NCBI RefSeq assembly: GCF_028737255.1
Contig: NZ_JAQZAN010000010.1
Coordinates: 1 to 64,000, forward strand
Length of the DNA: 64,000 nt
Direction: 5' to 3'
Origin: Actinomycetospora straminea
Lineage (GTDB): Bacteria > Actinomycetota > Actinomycetes > Mycobacteriales > Pseudonocardiaceae
The translations under genes and the position numbers were made by a program. Of the stretch, positions 6,786 through 51,151 are shown piece after piece (position 1 is the first letter of the stretch; every line of letters begins with the position of its first letter). The notes under the pieces were generated by a model, which made no database searches, was not told the DNA's origin, and was given only the letters and a program-made list of their open reading frames with translations.

Positions 6786-6872
6786 CTTGACTGAGCTCCA
6801 TTCGTTGACGACGAGGTCGTGGTCACGGACAATCTGACCCCTCGCGTGAGCCGAGGACAAGGGGGCATTCAG

Positions 6873-17282: not shown

Positions 17283-17303
17283 GACACCCTCCTCGATCAG
17301 GGC

Positions 17304-17322
17304 GTTGCGACGACCCCTTGAA
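17304..17322 (-). repeat. IS30 terminal inverted repeat, right
   Basis: Its reverse complement is ttcaaggggtcgtcgcaac, which differs at two positions from the left repeat. Confidence 0.75.
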
Positions 17323-17327
17323 CTCGA

Positions 17328-19455: not shown

Positions 19456-20394
19456 GTGAACTTCGAGGACGCCACGCTTGTCCGACTAGCCGACCCGAAT
19501 GAGCGTAGATCTATTTTCGACGAACTGAGCTTGCAGCATATTCTGGAAGCAGCGGTCGACACGTCCGGCATTACCCTCGAGGGACCTTACGACGCTACAT
19601 TTGACGAAATGCGGCTGGGTGTGTCCGCGACGCCTGTCATTAAGGCCGAGGGTGGATGGTCGGACTTCTCGCAGACCGAGCGCGTCGTGGCACGCTTCGA
19701 CGTTGCCTGGCCGCCCGGCCCGGATCAGCTCCACGCCGACCTCATGTGGCATGGCACTGTCATCGCCCGCGCCGCGGCGCCTTCGGGTGTGGTAGACGCC
19801 ATCGGGGCCGACTGGCCGGACATCGCCTCGCTGGACGATGACATCGCACTGCTGCCCGCCGAACCCGCAGAACTTGAGGCGGCGCGTCGCCGGGTACTGC
19901 TCGCCCGATTGAGGGCTGGGGCCGCTCAACCGGACGCCATTAGCGATCGCCTCGTCGACGGTCTGCTCGAGAGCACGGGAGTCGCGTCGGTCGGCGAGCT
20001 CGCCGACCGCCACGCCGGCGACTTGGCAACCGGCCTGATCCGCATCCACTTCGCCGAACGCCCCGCGCCGCCGCCCATGCCTCGACAGTTCCTCGTCGAT
20101 GTGGCGTTGCTCGTCCGCGCCGGGGTCGACAGACTCGCCGACCTCTTCGCCGTCAGCGCCGCGATGCGCAGCGCCCTCGGGCCCGAACTGTCGTACCCGC
20201 AGGAGCGCGACCACGCGCGCCGCGGCCCCGTCGTCGCCTGGGTCGTGCCCGCCGAGACCTTCGACGACGAGGACTGGCCCGGCGCCGAGCCGGGCCAGGC
20301 CGCGGAGGCCGCCCGGCTGGCGCGCCGGACGGCGGCCGCCGCCTGGCTCGCTCCGGCCGGCATCGCGCTCGTTCCGGTCCTGCCTGCCGCCTGA
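19456..20394 (+). CDS. unknown protein, first gene of contractile-particle operon, 312 aa
   Basis: GTG 19456 follows GAGGGAGG. The N-terminal half resembles a beta-rich domain (ITLEGPYDATFDEMRLGVSA, ERVVARFDVAWPPG). The C-terminal half is Ala/Arg-rich and helical, with a repeated VGELADRHAGDLA / VDRLADLFAVSA theme. No family is recognised. Position directly before the sheath suggests an assembly or cap function, by analogy with tail terminators, but nothing in the sequence proves it. A 65-base gap with a strong RBS separates it from the sheath gene. Confidence 0.7.
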   Translation: MNFEDATLVRLADPNERRSIFDELSLQHILEAAVDTSGITLEGPYDATFDEMRLGVSATPVIKAEGGWSDFSQTERVVARFDVAWPPGPDQLHADLMWHGTVIARAAAPSGVVDAIGADWPDIASLDDDIALLPAEPAELEAARRRVLLARLRAGAAQPDAISDRLVDGLLESTGVASVGELADRHAGDLATGLIRIHFAERPAPPPMPRQFLVDVALLVRAGVDRLADLFAVSAAMRSALGPELSYPQERDHARRGPVVAWVVPAETFDDEDWPGAEPGQAAEAARLARRTAAAAWLAPAGIALVPVLPAA

Positions 20395-20459
20395 CGCAGC
20401 CGAAAACGATCGCCACCGACCCGTTCCCATCCACAGCACCCGCCCGGAGGACCGTCGAA

Positions 20460-21629
20460 ATGCCCACCGCCGCATTTCCCTTCGTGGAAGTCCAGATCGA
20501 CACCTCCGGGCTGCAGCCGACCGCGCAGCGGGCGCCAGGTGTGCTCGCGGTCGTCGGTGAAAGCGCCGCAGGAAGCGCCGCGGCGAATGTGCCATTGCGA
20601 ATCGATACCGCAGCCCAGGCGGCCGAGCTGTTCGCGTCCGTCGACGCGGATGGGGTTGTTACCCCGAGTCCGCTGTACCGCTCGTTGAACACCGCACTCC
20701 TCCAGGATCCGCGTCCGTCGACGATCTACGGGGTCAAGGTCGACGCCGGTCAATACGGAGCTGGGTTAGCTGCCCTGGAGGCGGCCGACGACGTCACGTT
20801 CGTCTGCCTTGCCGAGGTCACCGATGTCGGGACACCTGCCGCGGAGAATCCGCCAGCGCCACCAACTGACCTTCACGCACTCAAGGCGCACTGCGAGCAG
20901 ATGTCCGCGGCCGGTCAGAAGCGCATCGGGGTTGCGATGATCGACCCGACGACGGCGAAGACCCCGACCTACGTTCAGGCGGTCGTCGGCGCAGTTGACA
21001 GTCTGCGCAGCGACACAAGCAGAATGATCATGATCGCGGCCCGTGGAGGCACGGGGGACGCGGCCGTCGCCTCGGCGGCGGCGATCGCCGGCCTCGAACC
21101 GCACATCTCCACGGTGCTTAAGCGGGTCCGGGGCGTGACGATGCCGGTCGAATCTCAATATGCACCCGGAGAAATTATAGGCCTGTCGGACGCCAACATC
21201 ATCCCGATCATTGATCCCGCGCTGGTCGTCGGCGAGAGTCTGCATCTTGCCGAGGGCCGGTGCTTCACCACCGACGCCAGCCTGCTCTATGTCGACATCG
21301 TTCGCGTGCTGGACGACATTGACTTCAGGCTCAAGGCGGGGCTGATCGGCCTGGTTGGCAGCGCCCGAATTACTCTGGCGGGCCTTTCCCGTGTGGTCAC
21401 GCGCGCCGCGGGGATCCTCGGGCCGCTGGTGCGGTCGAGCGTGATCGCCGACTACACGGTCACGATCCCGGTGCTGGCGATCCTCCGCATCCCTGAGAGC
21501 AGTTGGACGCCTTCCGACGCCGCGATTGTTGCCACGGCACGCGCCAATCGCGAGGTTGATATGTTCGTGACCGTCACCTACGGCCCGGCCGTCCATCGCC
21601 TCAAGGTCACCCTCAGCCCGCGCTTCTAA
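20460..21629 (+). CDS. contractile tail sheath protein, 389 aa
   Basis: The N-terminus, sheath-like central domain and C-terminal ASWTPSDAA-type region followed by an (R/K)xVxMFVTVTYGPAVHRLKV strand fit phage and injection-system sheath proteins, whose C-terminal strand meshes with neighbouring subunits. VLAVVGESAAG early, RMIMIAARGGTGDA mid-protein and IPVLAILRIPESSWTP are family-like. At 389 residues it is about the size of compact sheaths. The sheath contracts to drive the inner tube through the target envelope. ATG 20460 has GGAGG upstream. It is the clearest marker that the operon encodes a contractile particle. Confidence 0.8.
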   Translation: MPTAAFPFVEVQIDTSGLQPTAQRAPGVLAVVGESAAGSAAANVPLRIDTAAQAAELFASVDADGVVTPSPLYRSLNTALLQDPRPSTIYGVKVDAGQYGAGLAALEAADDVTFVCLAEVTDVGTPAAENPPAPPTDLHALKAHCEQMSAAGQKRIGVAMIDPTTAKTPTYVQAVVGAVDSLRSDTSRMIMIAARGGTGDAAVASAAAIAGLEPHISTVLKRVRGVTMPVESQYAPGEIIGLSDANIIPIIDPALVVGESLHLAEGRCFTTDASLLYVDIVRVLDDIDFRLKAGLIGLVGSARITLAGLSRVVTRAAGILGPLVRSSVIADYTVTIPVLAILRIPESSWTPSDAAIVATARANREVDMFVTVTYGPAVHRLKVTLSPRF

Positions 21630-21664
21630 AACGACGACGTCACCAATTGCGGCCGGAGGACGCC

Positions 21665-22093
21665 ATGCCCGACTGGAATACCCGTCTCGCCGTCTATATC
21701 GATGACGCGGATGACCCACTCACCCCTATTGATGCGTTCAGCCCGTCGTTCGCGCTGAACGCCGAGCCATTGCACTCCATCGAGCAGACCCACCTCGGCG
21801 TCGTTTACGCCCCACAGACAATCACGTTCTCGATGACGGTTCGCGCGATCGGTGATGCCGTCGCGAAGCTCACGACCATCGCCCTTCAACGTAAGCGGTT
21901 CAAGGTCGCGCTGGAGTTCCAGGGCGACCGCAGCGACTGGGCCTTCGACTCGATTGTCCTGTCGGACTGCATCATCACCAGTGCCAGCCCGAGCCCCGCA
22001 ACGATCTCCGGGGCCCCGGCTGCCACCTTCTCCGGGATGAGCTTGGCCGCCGGAGCTACGCCGGCGGGCGGCGTGGAGGTGACCGTTCCGTGA
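21665..22093 (+). CDS. inner tube protein, 142 aa
   Basis: A small protein directly after the sheath, as in contractile tails. Segments such as MPDWNTRLAVYIDD, QTHLGVVYAPQTITFSMTVR and FKVALEFQGD are beta-rich and fit the Hcp/gp19-like tube fold. GGAGGA at 21655-21660 fixes ATG 21665 rather than an upstream in-frame codon. Tube hexamers stack inside the sheath. The fold is inferred from size, order and strand pattern. Confidence 0.65.
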   Translation: MPDWNTRLAVYIDDADDPLTPIDAFSPSFALNAEPLHSIEQTHLGVVYAPQTITFSMTVRAIGDAVAKLTTIALQRKRFKVALEFQGDRSDWAFDSIVLSDCIITSASPSPATISGAPAATFSGMSLAAGATPAGGVEVTVP

Positions 22094-22109
22094 CTGGGAG
22101 GCGAGCGCG

Positions 22110-22361
22110 ATGACAGCGGCCGGCGGGCGCGGCGCGCGGGTCGGTCGGACCGGCATCGCACTGGTTCATGAGGGTGAGCTGGTGCTGCCGGCGGCGGGCA
22201 GCGAGGCGCAGGCCGAGCAAGCACTTGAGGACGAGCGAGGTGTCGTCACCTACTTCTTTCCGGTGGAGATTGAAGTCCGCTCGGCGGCGTCCGACCTGGA
22301 CCTCGACTCAGTCGCCGACCGCGTCTTAAGCCGTCTGGCCCAGGGCTTGGAAGGAGTCTGA
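22110..22361 (+). CDS. small operon protein, 83 aa
   Basis: It begins MTAAGGRGARVGRTGIALVH and continues with EGELVLPAAGSEAQAEQ. A GxALVHEGELVLP pattern like this is seen near the ends of tape-measure proteins and in small tail proteins. GGGAGG precedes the ATG. Its place between tube and the large protein matches that of a tail assembly chaperone in phages, but the sequence is too short to assign. Confidence 0.55.
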   Translation: MTAAGGRGARVGRTGIALVHEGELVLPAAGSEAQAEQALEDERGVVTYFFPVEIEVRSAASDLDLDSVADRVLSRLAQGLEGV

Positions 22362-22368
22362 GGCGGTC

Positions 22369-25300
22369 GTGCCGGTAAAGGTTCAGGTGCCGATCCGGGT
22401 CGTCGTCGACCCGCACGGGCTGATGTCGCGGCTGGACGACCTCGGCCAGGCGGTCGAGTCCGCGACGACACGCGCCCTGCTCCGCTCAGTGGACGTCCTA
22501 GTGGAGCGCCGCGGCGGGTGGGTCGCCCACGAGACCGCGTCCCCGGTCCTGACCTGGAACGGCGAGGGCCTTTCCGACGTTGCGGTGACGACGCGCCGAC
22601 TAGCCGAAGAGGCCGTCCGGCGGGCCATCGCGGCAGCCGTGGCGGCTGGTCTACCCGGCGACGATGCCGGCGACGCGGGTCTGGCCCGGCGGCTCGTCGA
22701 CGACCCGGCGGAGGCGCTTGACCCGGACCGGCTGGCCGCAGCGGCCGGGCTCTACACGATTCCCGGCTATGAGGACGGCGAGCCGACTATCGTCGTCTTC
22801 GACGAACCCTTCGACGTCCACAACGACGACGTACGTCTGCAGTGGGAGCCCGTGTCGCCGGGGCCGGCGATGTCGGAGAGATTCCGAGCTGAGCTTCAGA
22901 TCCGCTACGGCACCCGGGTGCCCGCGCAGGTCGGCGTGATCTTCCAGGGCGACGACGGGCAGCTGTGGGTCTACGTCGAGCGCGTCGCCACAGGGGAGGT
23001 CCTGCTCGACGGAGCCCTGGGGCCGCTGCTGGTGCGCGAATTGCGAACGAGCGCCGGCGACGTCGTTGCCATCGACACCCCATTCGTCCCATCCGCCGGA
23101 TCCACCTATCAGCTGCGCTATCTCGGCCGAGGGAACACCGATGCGGAGCGGCTGCAGGCTTTCCTGATCTTCTACGGACCGGCCCTGGCGGAGCACGTCC
23201 GTGCCGACCTGCCTACCGGCGTCGAGAACGCGGACGCGCTCGTCGCTGCCCGCGTCGAGGAGACCGCCCGGCGATGGGCCACAACCGGAGTCCCGGCAGA
23301 CACCCGGACCTTCCTCGTCTTGGTCGTGGACGGCAGACCGTTCCTGCTGCAGGGCACGGTCGACGTCGCGGCCGACCTCGATGCGGAGCTCGTCCCAATC
23401 GTCACGCTCGTCGACGCACCGCGTACCGAGGACGAACCGGGTACAGGCGAGAGGGGACTCGCCGGGGACGAGGGAGCTGGCCGGGAACGGAGCGGGGAGG
23501 GACGGTCGGATGAGCAGCGGGGCGGGGAGGGCGACGCCGGTGACCAGGTCGAGACCGGCGGTCCACTCGGTACTACCGCCTCCGATGTTGACCGTGTCTG
23601 GCCGATTGCGAGCCTGACGGGCGACGTGCTCGCCTGTACCCCGTTCCTGGGCGAACCGGCTGCTGCGGATCTTGTTGATGACGGCGGGCTGTTGGACCGG
23701 ATGGGCCGGCTCGCCGCGGCGCTGGAGGTCCCCGAGTGCGGCTACCTCGGCCGGTTTGCGATCAACGCCGCGGAGGTGGTTGCCGCGCGGGCCCGCGCTG
23801 TGGGGGTGGCCGCCGCGCAGGCGTCGACCACCAACGATGTCACGATCCGCCACGACGGGCGCGGCAACAACGGCTTTCTCGACGTCCGTCCCGGCGCCTC
23901 GCCGGAGTTCGAGTACCTGCGCCTGCTCGGTGGCCTCGCCGCACAGGTGCATGACTTCGGCTCCGCGGTGGCGGATATCTACCTCCTCCCGGCGAATCGG
24001 CACCTGGTCCGCGTAAACGAGGGCGGGAGTCCGAACGTCAGCGGGTGGATCCTGCGCTTCCTCAGCGAGTTTCCAGACGCCGTGCAGGCCGGGTACATGC
24101 ATCTGTATGCCGAGACATGCCGCGTGCTGCTGCTCCAACAGTTGCGCACCTCTCGCGCCGGCATTCTGGGCCGTTGCGCACGGCTCGACGAGACCGCCAC
24201 CGCGTTCGCGCAGACCCTGGACATCCTTGGCGAGTCCCTGGTTCAGCTATCGACGCTGCGTGCGGCCCTGCGGCATTCCGCCGAGGTGCACGTCGTGGGG
24301 ACGGTACGGCAGGTGCTGTCGGTGCCGGAGACCGTGCCGGATCCGGAGGGTGCGTCTGTCGCGCTGCCACCGCCCATTGACGACGTGCCGGCGCGCATCC
24401 TTGCCGTGGTCGGCGACGCGACGGTGCAGCGGCGGGGCGACGAGCGAGTCGTGCTGCATCGCGGCCGGACGTGGACGTTGGCCGAGCTCGACGCCGCCGT
24501 GGGCGTGCGTCGCCAGCTCATCAACCAGGTCGATCCGCTGTTCTTGCAGGTGGAGAACCTGGAGTGGCAGTACGCGGCTATGCAGCGCGACCCTGCTGCA
24601 CCGCGGCGGTTCCTCGAGCAGCTCCTCGGCAGGATGGCCGAGGCCAATAAGTCGATGCTCGACGAGGCCTCCGACCCCGACGATGGCGCGTTCTTCGCCC
24701 TGGAGGCGTCGCAGTACGTCCAGCGGGAGGGCGGGCGCGATTGGCGCGGCCTGCGGTATGACCTGCAGGGCGTTCATGCCCTCGCCGACGAGCAGTTGCG
24801 CCCGGCCATCGGTCACGACGTCCTCTACGTCGCGGGGATAAATGACGCCATCGGCCGTAAGGCCGCCTTCGACCAATTCCTGGCCGTTTTCGCCACCGGT
24901 GGAATCATCCTGCTCGGGTTGCTGTGTGCCCCACTTGGCGCGGTCGTTGTGGCCGCAGTGACGGGCATCGCCGGGCTCGCCCTCACCGCGCACGATGTCC
25001 TCGAGGCTCGCCGACAGTCCACGCTGTACCGAGCGCTAGAGGATCCCGAGCTTTTCCTGCGGTGGCAGGAGGTGCAGCTCGCGCAGCTGATGGCCGGTCT
25101 CGGGGTCGCATTCAGCGTTTTCGACGTCGTCGGAGTCGGTCGCGCCGCCCACGTCCTGGTCGACGCTGCCCGGTACGGCCTGCGGGTCGCCGAGCGTGCC
25201 AGTGTGGGTCTTGCAGCGCGCTCGCTGGCCCGCTCTGCCCGCCGCGAGATCGTCCGGAACATGACGCGGGAAGTCCTGGAGAACGCGGTACGCCAAGCCG

Positions 25301-25458
25301 TCACGGAGGCCGCGATCACCGCCGCACTCGACCGGCTGCTGCCTGCCGTGATCACGCCAGTCCTCGTGCCCTGGTTGCGCGAGGTCGCCCGAGAGCACGG
25401 CACCCTCGGCGAGGTGGACGCCGCCCTCGGTGAGCTCGTCCCCAGGAGCACACCGTGA
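22369..25458 (+). CDS. large operon protein, possible tape measure or cargo, 1029 aa
   Basis: Start GTG 22369 with GAAGGAG upstream. The N-terminal 340 residues are mixed alpha/beta. Residues about 350-390 form a Gly/Glu/Arg-rich, disordered linker. The middle is mostly helical. A long hydrophobic block lies at about 836-878 (LAVFATGGIILLGLLCAPLG and following), then amphipathic helices to the end. Order after the tube gene suggests a tape measure, which sets tube length and often holds membrane-active helices. However, the folded N-terminal part and disordered linker are unusual for one, so a loaded effector with a pore-like end is an alternative. No enzymatic motif is recognised. It overlaps the next gene by four bases. 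Confidence 0.75.
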   Translation: MPVKVQVPIRVVVDPHGLMSRLDDLGQAVESATTRALLRSVDVLVERRGGWVAHETASPVLTWNGEGLSDVAVTTRRLAEEAVRRAIAAAVAAGLPGDDAGDAGLARRLVDDPAEALDPDRLAAAAGLYTIPGYEDGEPTIVVFDEPFDVHNDDVRLQWEPVSPGPAMSERFRAELQIRYGTRVPAQVGVIFQGDDGQLWVYVERVATGEVLLDGALGPLLVRELRTSAGDVVAIDTPFVPSAGSTYQLRYLGRGNTDAERLQAFLIFYGPALAEHVRADLPTGVENADALVAARVEETARRWATTGVPADTRTFLVLVVDGRPFLLQGTVDVAADLDAELVPIVTLVDAPRTEDEPGTGERGLAGDEGAGRERSGEGRSDEQRGGEGDAGDQVETGGPLGTTASDVDRVWPIASLTGDVLACTPFLGEPAAADLVDDGGLLDRMGRLAAALEVPECGYLGRFAINAAEVVAARARAVGVAAAQASTTNDVTIRHDGRGNNGFLDVRPGASPEFEYLRLLGGLAAQVHDFGSAVADIYLLPANRHLVRVNEGGSPNVSGWILRFLSEFPDAVQAGYMHLYAETCRVLLLQQLRTSRAGILGRCARLDETATAFAQTLDILGESLVQLSTLRAALRHSAEVHVVGTVRQVLSVPETVPDPEGASVALPPPIDDVPARILAVVGDATVQRRGDERVVLHRGRTWTLAELDAAVGVRRQLINQVDPLFLQVENLEWQYAAMQRDPAAPRRFLEQLLGRMAEANKSMLDEASDPDDGAFFALEASQYVQREGGRDWRGLRYDLQGVHALADEQLRPAIGHDVLYVAGINDAIGRKAAFDQFLAVFATGGIILLGLLCAPLGAVVVAAVTGIAGLALTAHDVLEARRQSTLYRALEDPELFLRWQEVQLAQLMAGLGVAFSVFDVVGVGRAAHVLVDAARYGLRVAERASVGLAARSLARSARREIVRNMTREVLENAVRQAVTEAAITAALDRLLPAVITPVLVPWLREVAREHGTLGEVDAALGELVPRSTP

Positions 25459-26885
25459 CAATCGGTGCCGCGGCTCTACAGCCAGCCATTCGGGCATGGG
25501 CTCGCCGGCAGGCCCGCACCCTAAACGCCCTGGAGCGCGCCCTGGAGATCGTCTACCGCGACCGGCCAGGCATCCGGACCCTCGACGAACTCACTACATC
25601 CCTGCTGCTGGCGGTAATGCGCCGGCACGAGGCGACTGTCGACGGCGCGCTGCACCAGATCGACGACGTCATGGCACGTTTGATGGAGGACGTCGACCGG
25701 CTCCGCACAGCCGCAGCGCAGGGCCGCCCCCCAACCATGCGGGAGGCGGACCTGCACGTCCTGGCCGAGGCGCTGGCGGAGATGGTGAGCTTCCAGGACC
25801 GGGTGCAGTCCATGCTGGACACCGACCCCACCCGAGTGCAGGAGATCCTCCGCGACATAGTGGGTGCCCAACCATCGCCGGTGCCGCGGCCCCCGATACA
25901 GGGTGCGCCCACCCTCGTTGAGAGCCGGCGGCGCGGCGCCGAGGTGCTGCGCTGGGCCGAGGAGGTGCTGGCCGCGCACGCGGCGGGCCGAACTCTGGAG
26001 GTCAACCCGGTCCGGGTGCGGCCCCATCCGAGGCTCATCGAGCGGCTGGAGCGCATGCGCGAGGCGATGGCGGCCTACCGAAGTACCACGCACTCCGACC
26101 CTGTGGCGGCACACGAGGCGGCCGAGGAGCTGCGGCGAATGGTTGCCGAGGCCAACGAGACGCTACGATTGTTCGGCGATCGGTTCGAGGTGCGCACAAC
26201 CGGGGACCGTGTCGTGCCTACTCGACCCGACCCCGCTGCGGCGGCGGGCACCGTTGACGCGGACCTGCTGGCCGTGCGCCACGCGCTTACGGCCGAACGA
26301 GTGCATGCGCCTGCTGGGGAGCTGTTCGGGGTGCTGACCGTCGCCGAGCCGACCGTGCGCGCGGACGGCGTGCTCGGCGAGCCGCTCGCCCGGGACCTGC
26401 CGGACGTCGGGCTGGAGAAACACCTCCCGACACCAGATGACATCCGTGGCTTGCCGACCGACCCGCCATGGCTGGCGGCCCGGCTCGCTGACCTGCTGAC
26501 CAGCGCCGGCCACGAATGGGAGCGGGCCCATCTGATCGGGCCTGGCTTCGGCGCAGAGCTCTTTGAAGGGATCACACTCGCCCCCCGTGGGGTCAACCAG
26601 ATAGCGCAGAACCGCGGTATTGAGGGGTTCCTCCGACACGCTGCGGAGACCGTCGGCGGCGATGTGCGGGTCGCCGCCGAGGTGCATAGCCGCCGGCTCG
26701 CGATACCGCTGGCCGGCGGCACGTTCGAGCACATCGACGTCATGGAGTCGGTGCACTACCGAGTGCCGGTGCAGGACGGGCCACCGCTGATCTACGACAT
26801 CTACGTCAACCCCGACGGCAGCTGGCACGTCGAGCACAACCTCCCGGCCGGCGTCCTCGACATCCCGACAGGCGGCTCCGGATGA
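25455..26885 (+). CDS. putative toxin/effector with polymorphic-toxin-type C-terminal domain, 476 aa
   Basis: Residues 1-260 are helical with coiled-coil character (HQIDDVMARLMEDVDRLRTA, LRRMVAEANETLRLF), suited to packing or trafficking. A flexible stretch follows. The C-terminal 125 residues contain WERAHLIGPGFGAELFEGIT (His359 in the RAHLxGPGFG motif), NQIAQNRGIEGFLR and a strand-rich end. This resembles the C-terminal domain called polymorphic toxin type 4, as I remember it. Its chemistry is not established to my knowledge. GTG 25455 overlaps the upstream stop and ATG 26882 overlaps this stop, so it is translated with the tail genes. No immunity gene is obvious next to it. Confidence 0.6.
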   Translation: MTIGAAALQPAIRAWARRQARTLNALERALEIVYRDRPGIRTLDELTTSLLLAVMRRHEATVDGALHQIDDVMARLMEDVDRLRTAAAQGRPPTMREADLHVLAEALAEMVSFQDRVQSMLDTDPTRVQEILRDIVGAQPSPVPRPPIQGAPTLVESRRRGAEVLRWAEEVLAAHAAGRTLEVNPVRVRPHPRLIERLERMREAMAAYRSTTHSDPVAAHEAAEELRRMVAEANETLRLFGDRFEVRTTGDRVVPTRPDPAAAAGTVDADLLAVRHALTAERVHAPAGELFGVLTVAEPTVRADGVLGEPLARDLPDVGLEKHLPTPDDIRGLPTDPPWLAARLADLLTSAGHEWERAHLIGPGFGAELFEGITLAPRGVNQIAQNRGIEGFLRHAAETVGGDVRVAAEVHSRRLAIPLAGGTFEHIDVMESVHYRVPVQDGPPLIYDIYVNPDGSWHVEHNLPAGVLDIPTGGSG

Positions 26886-27921: not shown

Positions 27922-29903
27922 TCCTCGCCGGCCACGATCCCCATTCCAGAGTCGGCACGCAGGCGGGCTGGGCGCTCACGTTCCATGCCGAGACCGGGTT
28001 GCCCACACCAGGCGTCACTCTGCTGGAGGCGGTCACCTCCGACCGCTACGACGCGACGATCTTGGCGACGTTACCCGGCGGACTGGAGGGCGGCTCGTAC
28101 ACCATCACCGTGGAGGGCATGGTCGACGCCGACCATCTGGCCCTCGCCGCACGCGCGCCGCGCTCGACGGTCTTGCGGCTCCATCTGTTCTGGTACGACA
28201 CCGGCGGCATCGGCGGATACCTCGCCGGCATCGCGTCGCTCGGCGTGGGCAGCGGGGGATTTACCAAGCGGCTCGTGGCGGAGCTGACCGTGGTCGAGGT
28301 GACCCGCCGCGCCGGCGCCCGCCGCTACGAAACCGTGATCACCGCCCGCGAGCGGGTGTTCGAACGGCTCTCGGCCGCGATCGTCCAACCGGTCTGCGTG
28401 GCAAGCCCGAAGGTCGTCGCCGAGCTCGCCGCGCAGAACACCGGGATCCCGCTGACCGTCCACACCGGTTTCCATCCGGACGGCACGCTCCCGGGGTCAT
28501 CATCCTCGGAGGTCGCGACCGCCCTTACGACCCTTATGCGCGGCGAGACCTGGCGCGACGCGCTCGGGCGGCTCGCACGGGCTATGGAGGACGCGACGGC
28601 AAGCTACGGTCGGGGAGTGCTCCTGGTCCGCGACGGCGGGCTGCACCTCGGCGTCCGCGACGGCCCAGTGGGCGGCGGCATCGTCGAAGTGACCCCGAGC
28701 AAAGGACTCGTCGAAGTCGGCGGGGCCGCAGCCGGCGAAGGCTCACGGGTCCGCCGCACCCTCGTCCTGAAAGGCCGCCCAGATCTTAAGCCCGGGGCCG
28801 TCGTCAAGTTCGACATGCCGCCGACCGAGCGGACCGCCCCCATCACGCCCTCAATCGGCGCCGCGATCACCCGCAGCCTCGGCGCAGTCGGCCCGGCGCG
28901 CCCAAGCTTGGGGGACAGCATCGCCAACCCCCAGCTGCTCTACGTCGAGTCCGTCGCCCACCGGCTCGGCCGCACGTCCGGCTTCGTCACGACAGTCACC
29001 GGCGTCGAGGTCGACCAGCCCGGCCCAGCCGAGCAGCTGTACGAGTCGACGCCACCCTCGGGTCCCCCACGGCGACGCGCCGGACGCGGCAGCGGTGACA
29101 CAGCCGAACGCGCAGCGCTGGCCGTCGGCGACCGCGTCACCGACGCACTCTCGGCGCTGCGTCTCATCAACGGCGGCGAGGTCCGGGCCGCAACCGCGGC
29201 CGGCGCGGGCAGCGCCACGGAACCCCCGAGACGAACGACGACAGTGTGGCGCGGGCTTGTCGACCCTGACGGGCACCCCAACAGAATTACCCGGCTGCCC
29301 GTGCGCCGCGAGCATCCGGACGTCCGCGAACGCGTCCCTCAGGCCAGTCCGTTCGCCTGGGGCGCGACCGGCCTCGTGGTCCCCCGCTACCCCGGCACCC
29401 GCGTCCTGCTCGCCCACGGCCACGGCGACAACGACGACCCCGTTGAAGTCGGCGCGGTGTGGGAAGCCGGCTCGGGGCCCGACGCGCACCCCGGCGACTG
29501 GTGGCTCATCCTGCCCGCCGAGGTCGACGCCACCCAGCGCGCCTCCCTGCCCGACGACACCGTTCCCGAGCCCTACACCGGCAAGGTGACGCAGGACCTG
29601 GTCGACGCCGATGGCAACCGCGTGATCGAAGTCGGCGAGCTGACGATCCGCGTCACCCGGGAGGCCCTGTCCTCGGCAGGCACCCGTGCGAAGCGGGCGG
29701 GCGAGGTCGAAAACGGCCCCGCCGACAGCGTCACCATCGAGCACGCCGACGCCGGCTCGTCCATTGTCATGACCTCGGACGGCACCGTGCACATCACCGC
29801 CAAACGGATCGCGCTCGACGCGGGTGACGACGGAGAGATCTCGCTCAACGCCAAGTCAGTCAACGTGACCGTTGGCGAAGCCATGGATGTGAGCAAGCAG
29901 TGA
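27918..29903 (+). CDS. VgrG-like hub and spike protein, 661 aa
   Basis: The N-terminal 350 residues look like the gp27/GpD hub: a run of strands and YETVITARERVFERL-type helices, then VTPSKGLVEVGG. An OB-like segment follows with VWRGLVDPDGHPNRITRLPV, VPRYPGTRVLLAHGHGDND and PVEVGAVWE, as in gp5/VgrG. The end is a short repetitive beta prism or helix (SVTIEHADAGSSIVMTSDG, HITAKRIALDAG, EISLNAKSVNVTV). This is the central baseplate spike that punctures the target. GTG 27918 overlaps the previous gene by four bases. A PAAR tip, if used, would have to come from elsewhere, such as the divergent gene at 18.9-19.2 kb. Confidence 0.75.
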   Translation: MILAGHDPHSRVGTQAGWALTFHAETGLPTPGVTLLEAVTSDRYDATILATLPGGLEGGSYTITVEGMVDADHLALAARAPRSTVLRLHLFWYDTGGIGGYLAGIASLGVGSGGFTKRLVAELTVVEVTRRAGARRYETVITARERVFERLSAAIVQPVCVASPKVVAELAAQNTGIPLTVHTGFHPDGTLPGSSSSEVATALTTLMRGETWRDALGRLARAMEDATASYGRGVLLVRDGGLHLGVRDGPVGGGIVEVTPSKGLVEVGGAAAGEGSRVRRTLVLKGRPDLKPGAVVKFDMPPTERTAPITPSIGAAITRSLGAVGPARPSLGDSIANPQLLYVESVAHRLGRTSGFVTTVTGVEVDQPGPAEQLYESTPPSGPPRRRAGRGSGDTAERAALAVGDRVTDALSALRLINGGEVRAATAAGAGSATEPPRRTTTVWRGLVDPDGHPNRITRLPVRREHPDVRERVPQASPFAWGATGLVVPRYPGTRVLLAHGHGDNDDPVEVGAVWEAGSGPDAHPGDWWLILPAEVDATQRASLPDDTVPEPYTGKVTQDLVDADGNRVIEVGELTIRVTREALSSAGTRAKRAGEVENGPADSVTIEHADAGSSIVMTSDGTVHITAKRIALDAGDDGEISLNAKSVNVTVGEAMDVSKQ

Positions 29904-30385
29904 CTAGTCCCACGCCACCCAGGACCTCCGAGGACGCCGAGCAGCGCGCACTCGGCTGGGCCCTGCGCTGCGATCTCATCAGCCCCGGTGTCGACATCGG
30001 CCGCGATATCCGGCTGCGCCACGGCCGCGACGGCCTGGACCTCGACCTCGTCTCTGGCGTCGACTGCCTCACCCAGCACCTCGCGGTCGCGCTCACGACG
30101 CTGCTGGGCAGCGACGTCCTCAACACGACGTTCGGCTTCGCCGGGCTCGCCGCGATCGCCGAGGAGCAGATCCCGGTGCTGGTACAGGAGCGGTTACGCG
30201 TTGCGGTCGTCGGCGTGCTCAACCGGGACCCTAGGGTGCGGCGGATCGTCGACGTGAAGATCGCCGATCTCCGCCTTGACGCGCCTTCGCCGGGCAGTCG
30301 AGAGCTGGGTGTGCGGGTCGTCTTCGAGACCGTCACTGACGACAGGGTCGCCATCGACCTGGGAAGGCTGGTGCCCGTTGCCTGA
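29900..30385 (+). CDS. gp25/GpW-like baseplate wedge protein, 161 aa
   Basis: The C-terminal part has the family's pattern: AIAEEQIPVLVQERLRVAVV, then LNRDPRVRRIVDVKIADLRL. This corresponds to the lysozyme-like EPR/core-bundle wedge component that couples baseplate opening to sheath contraction. The size is typical. GTG 29900 overlaps the spike stop. The gene directly precedes baseplate J, as in phage Mu, P2 and injection-system clusters. Confidence 0.75.
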   Translation: MTSPTPPRTSEDAEQRALGWALRCDLISPGVDIGRDIRLRHGRDGLDLDLVSGVDCLTQHLAVALTTLLGSDVLNTTFGFAGLAAIAEEQIPVLVQERLRVAVVGVLNRDPRVRRIVDVKIADLRLDAPSPGSRELGVRVVFETVTDDRVAIDLGRLVPVA

Positions 30386-31802
30386 CGATCACTCGCAACC
30401 CGTGGACGTGCTCGCGGTCGACGAGGCCGTCACGAGGTCGACCGGCTCGGAGGGGTTCGGAATCACCGACACCGGCTTCGTGGCAAAGCCGTACGCGCGC
30501 CTACTCGCCGAGAAACTGGCGACAGCACAGCTGGTGCTCGGCGAGGGGCTCGACCTCACCGGCGGCTCGGTGATCCGCAAACTGCTGGAGGTTTGCGCAC
30601 TGGAGGACGCCCGCACATGGGCTGCCCTGGCCGCCTGGTACGACGACAGCTTCGCAGTCTCCGCAACGGGCTCGGCGCTGGATCGGCTGGGCGTGGAACT
30701 CGGCCTGCCACGGCCGTGGGAGGAGGCCGTGGGTGAGGTGACCCTCACCCTGACTGCGACGCTGCCCGCGGACGTCGCGGTGATCACGATCCCGCGCGGC
30801 GCGCGGCTGTTGACCGCGGGCGGGCACCATGCCGCGCTCGAGGAGACGGTCGCGATGTCGAACGCGTCCCGGCAGCGGATCGCAGCGGTGCGCGCGTTCT
30901 ATCCCGGGCCCGAGCATAACCTCGACCCCGGAAACCCGACCCAGAAGCTGGACCGCTGGCATCCCGACGACCCTTCCCTCGCCGCGCTAGTCGCGCTGGA
31001 GCAGACCCTCGGCTCGGCGCCGATAGCGATCGGCCACACCTTGCCGCTCACTGGGGGCGAGCTGCGCTGGCCGGACGCCCGCTACCGAGACCTTGTGCTC
31101 CGCGCGCCCCGCTCACTGTGGCGGGCGGACGCACTCGAGCTCGCCGTCTCGCTGGTTCCCGGCGTACGGCAGGTGACGGTTCGCGACTCTTGGGGTGGGC
31201 TGGACCTGTCGGAGGCGGTGTTCGGCGGGTTTCGGTTCCTGGAGCGGCTATTCACTACCGAGCGCGACGTCGCCAGCCCGTTCTTCGTCAGCGTGTTGGT
31301 GGCGCCGACGCCAGCTGCATTGTGGGACGGCCCGGACGGGCTGCGGGCTGCGATCGAGGCGGAGATTGAGGACCTGCGGCCGATCAGCATCTTCCCCAGG
31401 ATCGAGCGGGTGGACGAGGTCGGCATCGGGATCGCTGGCGCCGTCACCGTCGAGGGCCTTCCGCTCCCGAGCGGCACGAGCGATGTAGTCAACGCCTCGT
31501 CCCTGGCGCGGGCGCTCAAGGTGCGCCTGCTCGGCCGGGTCCGACGCTATGTGGAGGCGCTGCGCTTCGGCGAGCCCGTGCGGTGGGCGGAGATCCTGCA
31601 CGCGCTCATGGACGAGCCGGGCGTCGCCGACGTGACCGATCTGCGGCTGCTGCGCTACCCGCCCGGGCCGGAGGCCCTGGAGCTACCCGCCGTGCCCGCG
31701 CTGGGTGCTCCGCAGGTACACGCCCTCGGGGAGAACGTCGTGCTCTCCCCCACCCAGGTTGCGGTGTTTGTCGATGACGACGCTCGGTTGCGGGTCCGAT
31801 GA
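30378..31802 (+). CDS. baseplate J-like protein, 474 aa
   Basis: The start is TTG 30378, with GGGAAGG upstream and an eight-base overlap with gp25. The N-terminus (LTGGSVIRKLLEVCALEDAR, WYDDSFAVSATGSALDRLG) and the following strand region VTLTLTATLPADVAVITIPR then GARL are diagnostic of the GpJ/gp47/gp6 family, whose members form wedge arms around the hub. Later blocks (GGLDLSEAVFGGFRF, FPRIERVDEVGIGIAGAVTV) continue the fold. Size is typical. It shares TGA/ATG overlap with the next gene. Confidence 0.8.
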   Translation: MPDDHSQPVDVLAVDEAVTRSTGSEGFGITDTGFVAKPYARLLAEKLATAQLVLGEGLDLTGGSVIRKLLEVCALEDARTWAALAAWYDDSFAVSATGSALDRLGVELGLPRPWEEAVGEVTLTLTATLPADVAVITIPRGARLLTAGGHHAALEETVAMSNASRQRIAAVRAFYPGPEHNLDPGNPTQKLDRWHPDDPSLAALVALEQTLGSAPIAIGHTLPLTGGELRWPDARYRDLVLRAPRSLWRADALELAVSLVPGVRQVTVRDSWGGLDLSEAVFGGFRFLERLFTTERDVASPFFVSVLVAPTPAALWDGPDGLRAAIEAEIEDLRPISIFPRIERVDEVGIGIAGAVTVEGLPLPSGTSDVVNASSLARALKVRLLGRVRRYVEALRFGEPVRWAEILHALMDEPGVADVTDLRLLRYPPGPEALELPAVPALGAPQVHALGENVVLSPTQVAVFVDDDARLRVR

Positions 31803-34261
31803 CCGCCCCAACGGACACGGGCCCGACTCCGCTCGACCCGGACGTGCACGGCTCTGCAGCACATCGGCTGATGCGCGAGCACCTCACAGGCCCGCTGCAG
31901 GCCGGCGCGGCCGAGTCGCGGCTGGCCCTCTCGCCATCCGGGACGGTGGAGATGTCGAGCCCGACCCGTGAACCGCTCGTTCTCGCGGCCCCGACCCGGT
32001 CATTGGACGACTTGGCGCTGTCGCTGCGGGTCGAGGTGGTCGGCGGCGACACCGTCGTCCTTCACTTCGCGCCGGGTACCGAGGCGGGCGCGGCGCTGCC
32101 CGTCCTGCGGCTCGCGGCCGACCCGGGCACGGGCCTGGCCGCACCCTTCAGGCTGCGCCTCTCGCTCACCCAGATCCGCGGCACGACCAGCCGTCCGGTG
32201 CCGGCCGCGGCGCTGGCCGAGCACATCGAGCTGCGCCTGGTCGAGGGCGTGCTGGGCCGGCTCGTGTACCTGCTCGGGGCGGAGAAGGCCCGGCTGCGCC
32301 GGCAGGCCCGCGAGCTCGCGGGCGTCCGCCGCCTGAACGGTGCATATGGCGACGCGCTAGACCGGTGGGGCGCCGAGCTGGGCGTGCCTCGGCTGCTCGA
32401 CACCATCCGCTTCCGGGAGCCGGCGGCGCACGAGCGGGCGACCGTGTTCGGGTTGATCACGTTCGGCGAGCGCCGGTTCGGTCCGGGCTCCGCCGGTGAA
32501 GTCACCGCCGAGGCTCGCCGGGAGCCGGATCGGGAGTACCGCCGCCGCCTGGCGATCTACCGGTCCTGGCTGTACCCCTCGCCGGCCCAGGTTCGCGCGC
32601 TGCTCAACGGACCGGGCCGGGCGGACGAGGCCAACGCGGGCATGCTTGCTGACATCGGGATCACGGCACGGGCCGCGGTTCGCGACACTCCCCGACAGCC
32701 GGCCGTGGCCGTACACCTGGTAGCCGTCGATGACCCCGAGCTGCGGACTGGGCTGCACGAACACATCCGGCGCACGGCCCTGGTGTGGCCCGGCGACAGC
32801 GCGACGCCCGAGGCCGTGCACGCAGCCCGGTACCTGCCACAGGCCATGCGCGAGGCGACCGACGAGTTGCGAGCCCGCTTGCGCGCAGCCTTTGAGCTTC
32901 CCCCGGACGTGGCGCTGGCGCCGCGCCTCGCCCAACTACTGGACCGCGTCGCCCGCTGCCGACAGGCCTTGGGGGGGACCGATCGATGGCGGGTCCGCCG
33001 CGGCCAGGACCCCGACGGCGGCAGCCGGTACGAGCTTGGGTTGGGCGCGGACATCGAGCCCCTGGCCGCCGTCGACCTGGACGCAATGGCAGAACGTCTA
33101 CGCAGCGACGATATCGACCTGCCCTCGACGCCGACCAGCGCCGAACCGGACCCGGCCGAGACGAGGGCGCTGCTAGCCGCCGCGCAGCCCGTGGACGCAA
33201 TAACCGATCCCGATGGTGCGTGGCTGCTGGCTGCCGGCGGTCTACAGACGGTGCACCGGATCGCCGACGACCTACTGTACGTCTCGCACCTCTCAACCTT
33301 CGGGCTGTCGGTCTCCGGGCCCGCGGCGATCACTAGCGGGTCGACGGTGACGCTCGAGGCCCGGTACCACGCGGCCGGAGAGCCTGGCAGCCATGCGCTG
33401 ATACTCGCCGGGCTCACCGCCAGCGCCACGACCTGGACCGGCGCCGGTCGGGATCCATGGCAAGTCATCGACGGCGACGATGCGCAGGACGCATGGAACG
33501 CCGCGCTCGTCACGCCGGGCATGGCGGCGCCGGTGCTGGAGGCGGCCGGGTTGCCGAGTATCGAGGACCCGGACGGCGTAGCCACAGCGCTCGCGGACCT
33601 GCCCGCTGAGCTGATCGCGACGCTGCGCCTAGCCCCGACCACTGCCCGCCGGATCACCGCGGGCCGGCCGGAGGCTGTCGACGAGCTGCGGCAGTTGCTG
33701 AACACCTTCGGAGAGCAACGGTTGAGCGCTGCGCTGCTGCTGGTGCTGGGCGACGAAGATGTTGTCGTCGTTGTCGGAGGCGTCGCGCTACCCGTTGCCG
33801 GCCTCAACCTCACCGACCGCACCGCGACGCTATTTCGCTGGTATGCCAGCCGCGTCTGGCCGGTCGAGCCGGGAGAACCGGCTCCGGTCTCGATCGGCTA
33901 CCTCGGCGCGCGGACCGAACTCACCCCGAGGGCCCCGGGACTGTATGCAGTCGTGGCGCTCGGGCAGGTCCGAGTGCAGGCGGCTGGAACCGCTCCGTAT
34001 GAGTTCGCCGTCGAACTGCCGGCCGGCGTCACCATCAGCCTCCTGCAGTACGAGTACCTGATGAACCTGCTCGCCCACGTTCACCCGATGGGTGTCCGGG
34101 TCGATACATCGACGGTGCGCCAGCGGCACGTCGACCTCAGCGACGACGGCCGCGCGGAGCCGATCCCCCCGGACGTCTCCCGCACGTTCCGCTGGTTCCG
34201 TCGCTCCCGGTTCCGCGGCCGCACCGCCGCCGGCACACCCAGCGCACTGGAGCAGACATGA
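31799..34261 (+). CDS. large baseplate component (GpI/Afp12-like position), 820 aa
   Basis: Segments GAYGDALDRWGAELGVPRL and EYRRRLAIYRSWLYPSPAQV are typical of baseplate wedge proteins after J, where GpI or Afp12 proteins sit. The protein is unusually long. The C-terminal 60 residues, LLQYEYLMNLLAHVHPMGVR then DVSRTFRWFRR, look conserved and may bind fibre proteins. A beta-rich middle region (about 480-720) may add a receptor or carbohydrate-like domain. ATG overlaps the J stop by four bases. Fold assignment rests on position and short motifs. Confidence 0.65.
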   Translation: MTAPTDTGPTPLDPDVHGSAAHRLMREHLTGPLQAGAAESRLALSPSGTVEMSSPTREPLVLAAPTRSLDDLALSLRVEVVGGDTVVLHFAPGTEAGAALPVLRLAADPGTGLAAPFRLRLSLTQIRGTTSRPVPAAALAEHIELRLVEGVLGRLVYLLGAEKARLRRQARELAGVRRLNGAYGDALDRWGAELGVPRLLDTIRFREPAAHERATVFGLITFGERRFGPGSAGEVTAEARREPDREYRRRLAIYRSWLYPSPAQVRALLNGPGRADEANAGMLADIGITARAAVRDTPRQPAVAVHLVAVDDPELRTGLHEHIRRTALVWPGDSATPEAVHAARYLPQAMREATDELRARLRAAFELPPDVALAPRLAQLLDRVARCRQALGGTDRWRVRRGQDPDGGSRYELGLGADIEPLAAVDLDAMAERLRSDDIDLPSTPTSAEPDPAETRALLAAAQPVDAITDPDGAWLLAAGGLQTVHRIADDLLYVSHLSTFGLSVSGPAAITSGSTVTLEARYHAAGEPGSHALILAGLTASATTWTGAGRDPWQVIDGDDAQDAWNAALVTPGMAAPVLEAAGLPSIEDPDGVATALADLPAELIATLRLAPTTARRITAGRPEAVDELRQLLNTFGEQRLSAALLLVLGDEDVVVVVGGVALPVAGLNLTDRTATLFRWYASRVWPVEPGEPAPVSIGYLGARTELTPRAPGLYAVVALGQVRVQAAGTAPYEFAVELPAGVTISLLQYEYLMNLLAHVHPMGVRVDTSTVRQRHVDLSDDGRAEPIPPDVSRTFRWFRRSRFRGRTAAGTPSALEQT

Positions 34262-34304
34262 CCGACAGTGGCGATACCGAAGCCGACCCGAACAGGAGGC
34301 CGTC

Positions 34305-35006
34305 ATGCCCTTCGAGTTCCAGACTGGGTTTGAAGAGGTCGACCCGACCTGCATCGCGTCCTTCGCGCGGACGTTTGAGCATGCCGACTGGATCGACGGC
34401 GAAAGCATTGTGCAGGCGGAGTCGACGGCGGCCGACGAGGGGTTCAACTCCCGCTTCCACAAGATAATCGGAGATCTTGATGCGTTGGCCGCGGACGCCC
34501 GGCGCGGCCTTGAGTGCACGGCCGCAGTGCGGACAAGCTTGTTCGCGCTCCTAGCCGAGATCGAGGCTGAGCTGTCCCGGCTCGGTGCCGCGGTACCGAC
34601 GACAATGACTCTTACTCCAACACTCGCGTCGTTCGGCGACGACCCGTGGTCGCACTTCGCCGGTGGCGCGGAGAAGCGGATTGGTCTGGCATCGGCGCAG
34701 GGGATGATGGCACTCACCCTTCCCGCAGGGGCGACGCTCACGGGGTTTCGCGTGACCGGGCGGAAAGGCGCTGGCAACCTGTCGGTAGACCTTATGCGCC
34801 ACGACCTCGCCGTCGGCGCCGACCCGGAGCAGATCGTCGGCGTTACGCCAAGAGACGGCAACTTCGATCTGAAACGATCGATCTCCGCAGGTCCCTTGGC
34901 GACTATCGAGGAGAGGTTCCGCTACTACGTCCTCGCCCAGGTTGACGGGGCGGCCCTCGGCCCCGTGCGGCTCACCGGCATCCAGATAACTACGATGATG
35001 TCCTGA
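34305..35006 (+). CDS. possible tail fibre or tip protein, 233 aa
   Basis: An AGGAGG directly upstream selects ATG 34305. The first 90 residues are helical (FARTFEHADWIDGESIVQAE, IGDLDALAADARRGL). The rest is beta-rich (MALTLPAGATLTGFRVTGR, YYVLAQVDGAALGPVRLTGI). A helical stem plus a beta-sandwich head is common in fibre or receptor-binding proteins, and genes in this slot after the baseplate usually encode them. No named domain is recognised. Confidence 0.6.
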   Translation: MPFEFQTGFEEVDPTCIASFARTFEHADWIDGESIVQAESTAADEGFNSRFHKIIGDLDALAADARRGLECTAAVRTSLFALLAEIEAELSRLGAAVPTTMTLTPTLASFGDDPWSHFAGGAEKRIGLASAQGMMALTLPAGATLTGFRVTGRKGAGNLSVDLMRHDLAVGADPEQIVGVTPRDGNFDLKRSISAGPLATIEERFRYYVLAQVDGAALGPVRLTGIQITTMMS

Positions 35007-35017
35007 AAGGATTTCTC

Positions 35018-36052
35018 ATGACGAACGATCTATTCATCAAGGTCAACGCAGCCGACGACGGGGCGCGCCCCCTTCCGCCCGACACCGCAACTTGGACATC
35101 CCCATCGATCTGGCTGACCAACCAACGGGGTGATGGGATTCCCAGCGCGGTCGTCGGCCAGGTCAACGTCGTCAATGTGCAGGTCGACAGCATCAGCCCT
35201 GACCCGAAGACGAACGTGAAGGTGCAGGTGTGGGTCTGCGACTACACCGCAGGCGGCGTCGGGCCGGATTCTGTCCTCATCTCCGGCAGCGCTGGCGGGA
35301 GCACCGGCAAGATCGGAACCACCATGACCGCGGTGGCGGCAGGCGCCCCCGGGATCGCTCGCGTGGAGTGGACGCCAGACACCGCTGATCTCATCAACAC
35401 CGGCGATCCGAACTCCGGCCACGTGTGTGCCGGGGCCAACGTCTTCGTCCAGGGCGCAGCACCCGAAGGGAGCCTCAAGTCGTCTGGGTTCGTAGACGTG
35501 GTGAACAATCAGCACCATGCCCAGCGCAACCTCACCGTGATCCGAATCGGGGGGTTGGTAAACTTCACCATGGGCGTGGTCAATCCGGGCCTGGAGCTGG
35601 CGCGTTTCCATCTGCAGGCGGCGCCGGTTGACCCCGAGCTGGTGATGGGACCGCTGGAGCGGGAGACCCTCCTCACCGCACACTTTGTCGACCTGCTCGG
35701 CGCCGAGGAGCCGGTCCGTGTCCCGCTGGAGTGCATGACGGAGCCGTTGGAGCGCACGCGACTGGCCGGGGGCGGAGAACTCATCCTGCTAGGCATGCCG
35801 GAGCCAGTCCCGCTGCGTCCGGCGACGGCCCCCCTTGACGCTCAACTCGTCACTGCCGAGGGCAGCGACCAGCACTTGACCGTCGAAGTCGAGCCCGGCG
35901 ATCGGCTGCCGGTCACACTACGTGCAAGGCTCGGCGATGGCGATGTCGGCGACGTTCACGGAGTCGAACTCACCCAGATCGATGACAACGGCAATATTCT
36001 TGGCGGCGCTCGGGTACTGCTGGTGAACACACCGAACTGGGTGTGCCCCTAA
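35018..36052 (+). CDS. beta-rich protein ending the contractile-particle operon, 344 aa
   Basis: It begins MTNDLFIKVNAADDGARPLP and shows repeated beta-sandwich style strands: SPSIWLTNQRGDGIPSAVVG, VNVVNVQVDSISPDPKTNVK and RIGGLVNFTMGVVNPGLELA. The two halves look like two Ig-like or CARDB-like domains. There is no signal peptide. As the last gene of the run, it could be a receptor-binding or decoration protein. ATG 35018 follows GAAAGGA by a short spacer and is 11 bases after the previous stop. Confidence 0.6.
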   Translation: MTNDLFIKVNAADDGARPLPPDTATWTSPSIWLTNQRGDGIPSAVVGQVNVVNVQVDSISPDPKTNVKVQVWVCDYTAGGVGPDSVLISGSAGGSTGKIGTTMTAVAAGAPGIARVEWTPDTADLINTGDPNSGHVCAGANVFVQGAAPEGSLKSSGFVDVVNNQHHAQRNLTVIRIGGLVNFTMGVVNPGLELARFHLQAAPVDPELVMGPLERETLLTAHFVDLLGAEEPVRVPLECMTEPLERTRLAGGGELILLGMPEPVPLRPATAPLDAQLVTAEGSDQHLTVEVEPGDRLPVTLRARLGDGDVGDVHGVELTQIDDNGNILGGARVLLVNTPNWVCP

Positions 36053-39018: not shown

Positions 39019-39024
39019 GCCGGT

Positions 39025-51123: not shown

Positions 51124-51151
51124 CCGAGCCGCCGACCTGAACGGAGCTCCG

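Follow-up and report, generated by a model that had tools for sequence, protein, structure and literature searches.

A 64,000-nucleotide stretch of the Actinomycetospora straminea genome (contig NZ_JAQZAN010000010.1, hereafter the window; host assembly of 6.29 Mb in 56 contigs) carries an operon of fourteen plus-strand open reading frames (ORFs), g1 to g14, at 19456-36052, which probably encodes a contractile injection system (CIS) that carries a modular protein toxin and belongs to a separate and rarely seen lineage. In the mechanism that we propose, g1-g4 and g7-g13 would build the cap, sheath, tube, baseplate and attachment parts of the particle. The product of g5 (protein A) would be a dedicated carrier, whose conserved N-terminal domain of ~90 residues may dock at the hub/tube-initiator end of the lumen, and a hydrophobic segment in A may aid the crossing of a target membrane upon sheath contraction. 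The toxin would travel with A, either as a separate partner, B (g6 in the window, with an Ntox4 domain; the 'split type'), or as the fused C-terminus of A (the 'fused type'), and B or the fused end would then act inside a target that may be a rival, a eukaryote or the producing cell. What the compared sequences hold is an operon with conserved gene content, a toxin domain, a conserved A N-terminus, exchanged toxin ends, and an A that co-occurs with the operon as a single strong copy in the operon-bearing genomes searched.

The proposed toxin module and its carrier

The C-terminus of B (g6; 25455-26885, 476 residues) matches Ntox4 (Pfam PF15541) at residues 354-443 with E=3.3e-22 and 79.3 bits, against a curated cut-off of 25. 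Ntox4 is listed as an alpha+beta domain from Nitrosococcus and Frankia and as PVC-associated (PMC3482391). Together with A (g5; 22369-25458, 1029 residues, with a variable middle behind its N-terminal domain), B fills the slot between g4 and g7. The first-pass annotation, made from the sequence alone, had picked out these proteins of 1029 and 476 residues; it did not see them as a toxin module, and the toxin domain of g6 went unreported.

We then compared the operon with its relatives in a set of 31 loci that share the same structural genes, 16 of which are mutually close (L086-L101). Between the window and Phytohabitans flavus (L009), the identities of the core proteins range from 52 to 81% (g1 52, sheath 77, tube 72, g4 75, g7 81, g8 61, hub 57, gp25 72, J 74 and g12 58), whereas A is only 29% identical and B has no match; among the distal genes, the likeness of g13 is confined to its N-terminal part, and g14 is unmatched. 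In loci of the split type, an A of 949-1084 residues (one called shorter, from a late start) is accompanied by a separate B of 441-583 residues. This arrangement was found in the window, Phytohabitans, Aquisphaera, Nodosilinea (where A and B sit on two contigs), L102 and the 16 close loci (one truncated). In the eight loci of the fused type, A has 1313-1587 residues, and a small gene lies downstream of it in six of them (three from Paraburkholderia, a deltaproteobacterial metagenome-assembled genome (delta MAG), Myxococcus and G920), with none evident in Streptomyces canus or L103.

The ends of the fused A proteins differ between loci. The Myxococcus A (L008) ends in AvrRxo1, a zeta-like toxin (NCBIfam, 9.2e-95; 317.5 bits, with the cut-off at 300), and this end also matches the solved structure 4z8q (2.8e-37). 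The next gene, of 102 residues, carries the Arc1 antitoxin motif, as defined in PMC4938570, with a spacing of 26 and F replacing Y/L; with any residue allowed at the Y/L place, the motif occurs in one of 788 proteins of the loci and in none of 20000 shuffles of the Myxococcus partner. Myxococcus A and G920 A, both from the Myxococcus phylum, are 64.5% identical over residues 1-1108, with no alignment beyond, and the A proteins of S. canus and L103 end in an AHH nuclease (4e-7 and 7e-8, respectively).

Among the separate B proteins, that of L102 has an Ntox4 match under the cut-off (0.0034, 18.1 bits) and is 28% identical to the window B over 110 residues (8e-4). L102 branches far from the window, yet the window's sister, Phytohabitans, carries another B. 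Aquisphaera B is related to L086 B (30% over 466 residues, 6e-32), Nodosilinea B matches Tox-REase-9 below the cut-off (7e-4), and in the 16 close loci the 15 B proteins that are complete have a mean identity of 0.835. Toxin exchange is thus seen in these sequences between lineages and not at every step. One locus, L105, has two large slot proteins: that of 1041 residues matches Nodosilinea A (24% over 620 residues, 6e-15), and that of 879 residues, which carries a PT-TG pre-toxin domain (1e-7), has a match in Aquisphaera B (1.8e-5) and an A-like start by eye only. HNH and PD-(D/E)XK readings made by eye for B in Phytohabitans, Aquisphaera and L086 were set aside, as Pfam and NCBIfam gave no support.

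The ~90 residues at the start of A (V.VPIRL.VD, a helix-like stretch and W.G) can be aligned across ten A proteins. The profile of this domain was built from the A proteins of 10 of the 11 operon-bearing genomes or records on which it was run, so that the one strong copy found in each of these ten is there by construction; in the eleventh, the delta MAG, which was absent from profile building, a weaker, frame-broken copy of A was found. No second strong copy was detected in the 11 genomes or records, with at most 150 first-look candidates scored per operon-bearing genome, and two further matches near E=0.009, one of them in the window's genome, look like noise. Across 193 genomes of the Myxococcus phylum (at most 27 candidates scored per genome), the profile matches only the two operon carriers. 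The loci L086-L101 and L102, fetched later and outside profile building, also carry A, and in 15 of the 16 close loci the protein opens with the same motif by eye, that of L100 being called from a later start. Because the profile matches only operon carriers in that phylum, and because the later-fetched loci carry A as well, A looks dedicated to the operon, to judge from its sequence distribution.

Furthermore, A is not bound to one place. It lies inside the slot in 26 of the 31 loci and elsewhere beside the operon in three (Myxococcus, S. canus and L103), while in G920 it sits on another contig, among other genes; it is unseen only in L104, a locus cut by a contig end. In 30 of the 31 cases, therefore, an A-type gene accompanies the operon within one genome or record. 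The unlinked G920 gene was recovered with Myxococcus A as the query, which matched in 8 of 10 genomes. A hydrophobic segment lies near residues 846-864 of the window A, and such segments occur in 15 of 17 A entries, the two L105 proteins being those that lack one.

We read A and B as cargo because toxin domains lie in or beside the operon, because the cargo changes where the structure does not, because A looks dedicated to the operon without being bound to the slot, and because Ntox4 is listed as PVC-associated (PMC3482391). Several points weigh against this reading. The lineage is known from genes alone, with no particle, loading or toxicity seen. A occupies the position of a phage tape-measure gene, and a structural part would, like A, usually be present once; the matches of the N-terminal profile in 11 of 11 genomes or records are by construction for ten, and the first-look candidates were scored only in part. 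In the window, no gene that might confer immunity lies between B and g7, and a phmmer search of the Myxococcus partner against solved structures gave no Arc1. A domain shared by the N-termini of B proteins was tried and dropped (hhalign probability 0.6 against the window B), as was a likeness of g4 to the A N-terminus (probability 3.9 over 11 columns).

Structural genes of the operon

In agreement with the first-pass annotation, the fourteen ORFs stand on the plus strand in phage-like order. The overlaps of 1-8 bases that it described are present at six junctions (25455/25458, 26882/26885, 27379/27379, 27918/27921, 29900/29903 and 31799/31802), with sizes of 1 or 4 bases, and the remaining junctions are short gaps. 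Pfam was run on 31 window ORFs and PHROGs on 10 (g5 and g12-g14 not included). Searching each gene by profile, as had been proposed, put names to the sheath, gp25, J and Ntox4, with Pfam and NCBIfam otherwise almost silent on the operon proteins. Thus the identities of sheath, gp25 and J are backed by PHROGs profiles, while those proposed for tube and hub/spike are likely on the grounds of gene order and conservation and, for the hub, weak profile matches.

The first gene, g1 (19456-20394, 312 residues), is a candidate tail cap or terminator from its position; the best of five AlphaFold models has a pLDDT of 73 and a pTM of 0.60, the pLDDT ranging from 47 to 73 over the five. Pvc16_N (PF14065) has no match in g1-g14, although a terminator recognisable by structure alone could still be g1. 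It is followed by the contractile sheath, g2 (20460-21629, 389 residues; phrog_279, 1.8e-6), the probable tube, g3 (21665-22093, 142 residues), and the small protein g4 (22110-22361, 83 residues), in which alignment reveals a conserved Y.FPVEIEVR stretch and which, from a resemblance, may be a remnant of a tape-measure C-terminus. Beyond the cargo slot lie g7 (26882-27379, 165 residues), a probable tube initiator placed as in the published S. davawensis CIS; g8 (27379-27921, 180 residues), a putative baseplate hub accessory; and g9 (27918-29903, 661 residues), a putative VgrG-like hub/spike. Then come the gp25-like sheath initiator/wedge g10 (29900-30385, 161 residues; phrog_975, 1.1e-6) and the baseplate J wedge g11 (30390-31802, ~470 residues, start uncertain; phrog_6, 9.3e-29). 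The distal genes are g12 (31799-34261, 820 residues), which may be a third wedge or receptor-attachment protein; g13 (34305-35006, 233 residues), a putative fibre or adaptor with ~95 conserved N-terminal residues and a variable C-terminus; and g14 (35018-36052, 344 residues), a variable, possibly fibre-like gene with relatives in L103, L104 and L105 at 27-47%.

Sheath, tube and g1 are common to all 31 loci. The genes g7, hub, gp25, J and g12 were traced in 30, that is, everywhere but in L090, a contig of 5.3 kb; g4 and g13 were traced in 29 and g8 in 26. With 11 of the 14 families traced in 26-31 of the 31 loci (16 of them mutually close), the conservation of the gene set is far beyond chance as judged by sequence. 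Many loci also have a gene of ~110 residues between hub and gp25, which is uncalled in the window, Phytohabitans, the delta MAG and Nodosilinea; a 'PAAR-like' label for it was rejected, being drawn from position only, with Pfam blank on the L086 copy.

The weak matches of the hub profile are a Gp5/Vgr OB-fold protein at 0.008 and gp45 puncturing proteins at 0.45 and 0.52. Against solved structures, the gp25 profile matched the 'Baseplate wedge subunit' ORF61 (5e-10) and, more weakly, 'Sheath Initiator PA0617' (0.0041) and Afp9 (E=0.1), and the J profile matched 'Wedge 2 protein' (1.3e-11). All3318 (7b5h) was matched at 1.3e-4 in the J/gp25 comparisons; we take 7b5h to be the Anabaena thylakoid CIS and ORF61 to be a phage protein. 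Sheath and tube profiles had no match among solved structures. Predicted sigma-70-type promoters (0, against 1.0 in shuffles) and terminators (4, against 5.4) did not rise above shuffles.

Distribution, spread and genomic surroundings

A pattern-based contig scan yielded eight loci: Nodosilinea, three Paraburkholderia, Aquisphaera, the delta MAG, Myxococcus and Phytohabitans. The 31 loci come from actinobacteria, myxobacteria, Paraburkholderia, a cyanobacterium and a planctomycete, and the named carriers fall in five phyla, so that the term 'actinobacterial' in the first-pass annotation proved too narrow. Surveys with a sheath profile (A1, E<=1e-20) matched a single genome among 396 in the window's phylum (that of the window itself), one of 292 in the Nodosilinea phylum (Nodosilinea itself), two of 195 in the Myxococcus phylum, one of 246 in the Aquisphaera phylum (Aquisphaera itself) and two of 249 in the family of P. 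caffeinitolerans, both already known. In the Phytohabitans family, at E<=1e-10, 21 of 290 genomes had a sheath match, namely Phytohabitans, the 16 close loci, another of intermediate distance and three that are distant. The window sheath found no match in the window's 99 other nearest genomes. Viral contigs searched with the sheath profile held no relatives, and the window sheath and J had no match in 50,697 phage records; a fragment of the S. canus-type sheath (15% of the query) matches one Thermoanaerobacterium phage. Since carriers are few in each surveyed group and viral and phage collections gave no matches, the lineage appears rare and patchy, and it appears absent from phages as far as the searched collections go.

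A distant copy of the operon lies on a plasmid of Streptomyces canus (L040), where it ends with a LysM gene. Upstream of it is an annotated DNA/RNA non-specific endonuclease (L040:13336-15216), possibly a second cargo, with no A-type motif at its start by eye. In L031 (3680-6793) and L102 (16993-19171), a RimK-like ATP-grasp gene and a partner protein lie downstream of g13; Myxococcus has a PhyH-like gene too, and the same set of genes as in Myxococcus is present again in G920 and in the delta MAG.

In a FastTree phylogeny of six core proteins, the sister of the window is Phytohabitans (support 1.0), followed by Nodosilinea, a cyanobacterium (0.99), and the window does not group with the 16 loci from the family of Phytohabitans itself. 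The Phytohabitans sheath and J were entered as fragments, as both frames are broken in that record (~10576-10579 and 20645-20654), through either decay or sequencing error. This placement points to spread of the operon by horizontal transfer.

Capsid, portal, terminase, holin and endolysin genes, which the first-pass annotation had reported missing, were not found among the ORFs scanned with Pfam and PHROGs, and the sole rve-domain protein seen is an IS30-like transposase, also with HTH_38 (15900-17354). It adjoins a tRNA-Pro(ggg) gene (17513-17601) upstream of the operon; the window holds no attachment-site repeat of this tRNA gene, its other matches being 12-18 bases long. The reported absence of AAA+ and LysM genes likewise holds within g1-g14. 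A wider look showed only a 764-residue minus-strand ORF (4566-6860) with AAA_16/AAA_22 matches under the cut-off, ~12.6 kb from the operon and with nothing seen linking the two. T6SS-type (type VI secretion system) Pfam matches were absent from the 31 scanned ORFs. The hallmarks of the T6SS are a membrane complex, ClpV and Hcp.

Behind g14 is a short ORF of 119 residues (36433-36792, plus strand) with a LuxR-type helix-turn-helix (HTH; Pfam GerE, 1.2e-16), a possible regulator or remnant. Other regulators are a LuxR-looking gene beside the L103 A, by eye, and a BTAD-type activator at the L086 operon end, and regulation may be shared with the window HTH ORF. Directly downstream (37279-40107) are a subtilisin-type S8 protease (1.4e-36) and a metallo-beta-lactamase-fold protein (2.6e-12). 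Both the window (13887-15392) and the S. canus plasmid (L040:8687-11842) encode a patatin-like protein upstream of the operon. The protease, metallo-beta-lactamase-fold and patatin-like proteins beside the operon had no blastp match among the genes called in the first eight relatives. Farther out, a 174-residue ORF at 10091-10615 comprises only the C-terminal part of a PEP-utilising enzyme domain (5e-43) and is probably a gene remnant, and the right flank encodes a LodA-type lysine oxidase and a CHAT-domain protein (51083-53155 and 61889-63199).

Alternative readings and comparison with known systems

It is possible, though not the reading that we favour, that A is the tail tape measure and the toxin a passenger, in a tape-measure/effector hybrid as argued for Tme of S. 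davawensis (PMC11126660). The place of A in 26 of 31 loci, after the tube and ahead of the tube initiator, would suit such a role, as would its being the longest ORF of the window operon, its hydrophobic segments in 15 of 17 entries and its one strong copy per genome in the ten intact cases. A structural ruler is harder to reconcile with the G920 A on another contig and with the A genes outside the slot in Myxococcus, S. canus and L103; the two large slot proteins of L105 add weak evidence in the same direction, as only the 1041-residue one matches an A. Outright membership of the S. davawensis (Tme-type) group, which would make the system known in kind, seems unlikely to us. The published tag order of effector 7576, tube initiator 7578, spike 7580 and tip 7582 does resemble A, g7, g9 and the small post-hub gene of many relatives, and that group is also cross-phylum with a plasmid copy (PMC11126660); the S. 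canus locus here is likewise on a plasmid. However, its authors delimit the group by length, synteny and an effector that starts with a DUF4157 domain (PMC11126660), and all 13 proteins scanned as A were without a DUF4157 match; among these, L007 and L103 lacked their first piece and the 879-residue L105 protein is an A by eye only. Nor is there an HExxH motif in the 17 and 16 A entries of two lists, which share two entries and include some incomplete ones.

The machine might also act inside or on its producer and not as a weapon, with a part in programmed death or in development as in the case of the cytoplasmic Streptomyces CIS; we hold this to be possible though somewhat doubtful. The absence of a lysis gene among the scanned ORFs and of a visible immunity gene beside the split-type toxins would fit it, as would the regulators at operon ends (the LuxR-type HTH of the window, BTAD at L086 and, by eye, the LuxR-like gene of L103) and the LysM gene of S. 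canus. Against it stand the small gene downstream of six of eight fused-type A genes, one with an antitoxin motif, the diverse toxin ends and the variable g13 C-termini. R-type tailocins inject no toxin and are released by a host lysis cassette. That the operon is such a particle, killing by membrane depolarisation with g5 and g6 as unrelated insertions, is very improbable: sheath, gp25 and J follow, by profile, a P2-like order, and gp25 weakly matches 'Sheath Initiator PA0617' (0.0041), but an A-type gene accompanies 30 of 31 cases (the remaining one cut by a contig end), A has a shared N-terminal domain, g6 has a toxin domain and no lysis gene was seen among the scanned ORFs. The 'tailocin' of the first-pass annotation is accordingly disfavoured, as the operon carries a toxin module, whereas its alternative, an injection machine of a poorly described type that is neither a prophage nor the standard extracellular set, holds up. 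What it observed is thus confirmed, and its interpretation partly supported.

Returning to the toxin-loaded injection system, we tentatively suggest, with somewhat less than even confidence, that it represents a further CIS lineage, which arose by domestication of a myophage tail separately from T6SS and Afp/PVC and lacks an AAA+ ATPase and DUF4157. In this lineage one conserved folded N-terminal domain would address every effector to the particle, and the effector could be split into a carrier and a separate, exchangeable toxin. If true, this would be a natural plug-in loading system. For published extracellular CIS (eCIS) effectors, no specific conserved loading sequence was detected (PMC11297309), which makes cargo hard to predict; here, the conserved A N-terminal domain marks the proposed effector, and cargo may therefore be found by search, even where unlinked as in G920. 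A cross-phylum operon that is nearly blank in Pfam and NCBIfam also suggests that injection-system catalogues may miss a lineage. No paper recognisable as describing it was found in the literature searched; supplementary files and the S. davawensis relatives figure lay outside that search, and a prior description is possible.

Because no AAA+ ATPase, Pvc16_N or DUF4157 was matched, we do not file the operon as an eCIS, a Tme-type CIS, a tailocin or a T6SS. It shares sheath, gp25, J and toxin cargo with the Afp/PVC eCIS, and Ntox4 has been counted among the PVC toxins (PMC3482391). An AAA+ ATPase and Pvc16_N are called invariable in eCIS (PMC10020575), and one eCIS criterion is at least ten core genes with Afp12, 13, 14 or 16 (PMC8213781); here AAA+, Pvc16_N and DUF4157 are unmatched, and gp25 reaches Afp9 only at E=0.1, against 5e-10 for ORF61. 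By sequence, the nearest solved relatives of J and gp25 are myophage baseplates (ORF61/62, Phi92 gp145 and gp88), which from their names we take to be of phage origin. Unlike myophages, the operon has a toxin domain and is accompanied by no head, packaging or lysis gene among the scanned ORFs. The conserved N-terminus and exchanged C-terminal toxin of polymorphic toxins (Zhang 2012, PMC3482391) are present here (64.5% identity over residues 1-1108; AvrRxo1 and AHH ends), as are a pre-toxin domain in one locus and an antitoxin motif in one partner gene, but the putative trafficking part is an N-terminal domain absent from Pfam and NCBIfam and found with the operon. With Sle1/Sle2 of the S. lividans SLP (Nagakubo 2026, PMC13277306) the system has in common a modular effector, a swappable functional domain and a two-gene effector module, although Sle2 bears DUF4157 and Sle1 a long coiled coil. 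Judged by description, and not by sheath sequence, the nearest published system is the S. davawensis CIS (Nagakubo 2024, PMC11126660). Both are cross-phylum contractile systems in which the effector gene immediately precedes those of the tube initiator and spike, and Tme is likewise a large effector with hydrophobic segments and a C-terminal nuclease, reported also from a plasmid copy; Tme differs in its N-terminal DUF4157, and in the lineage described here the toxin can be a separate gene.

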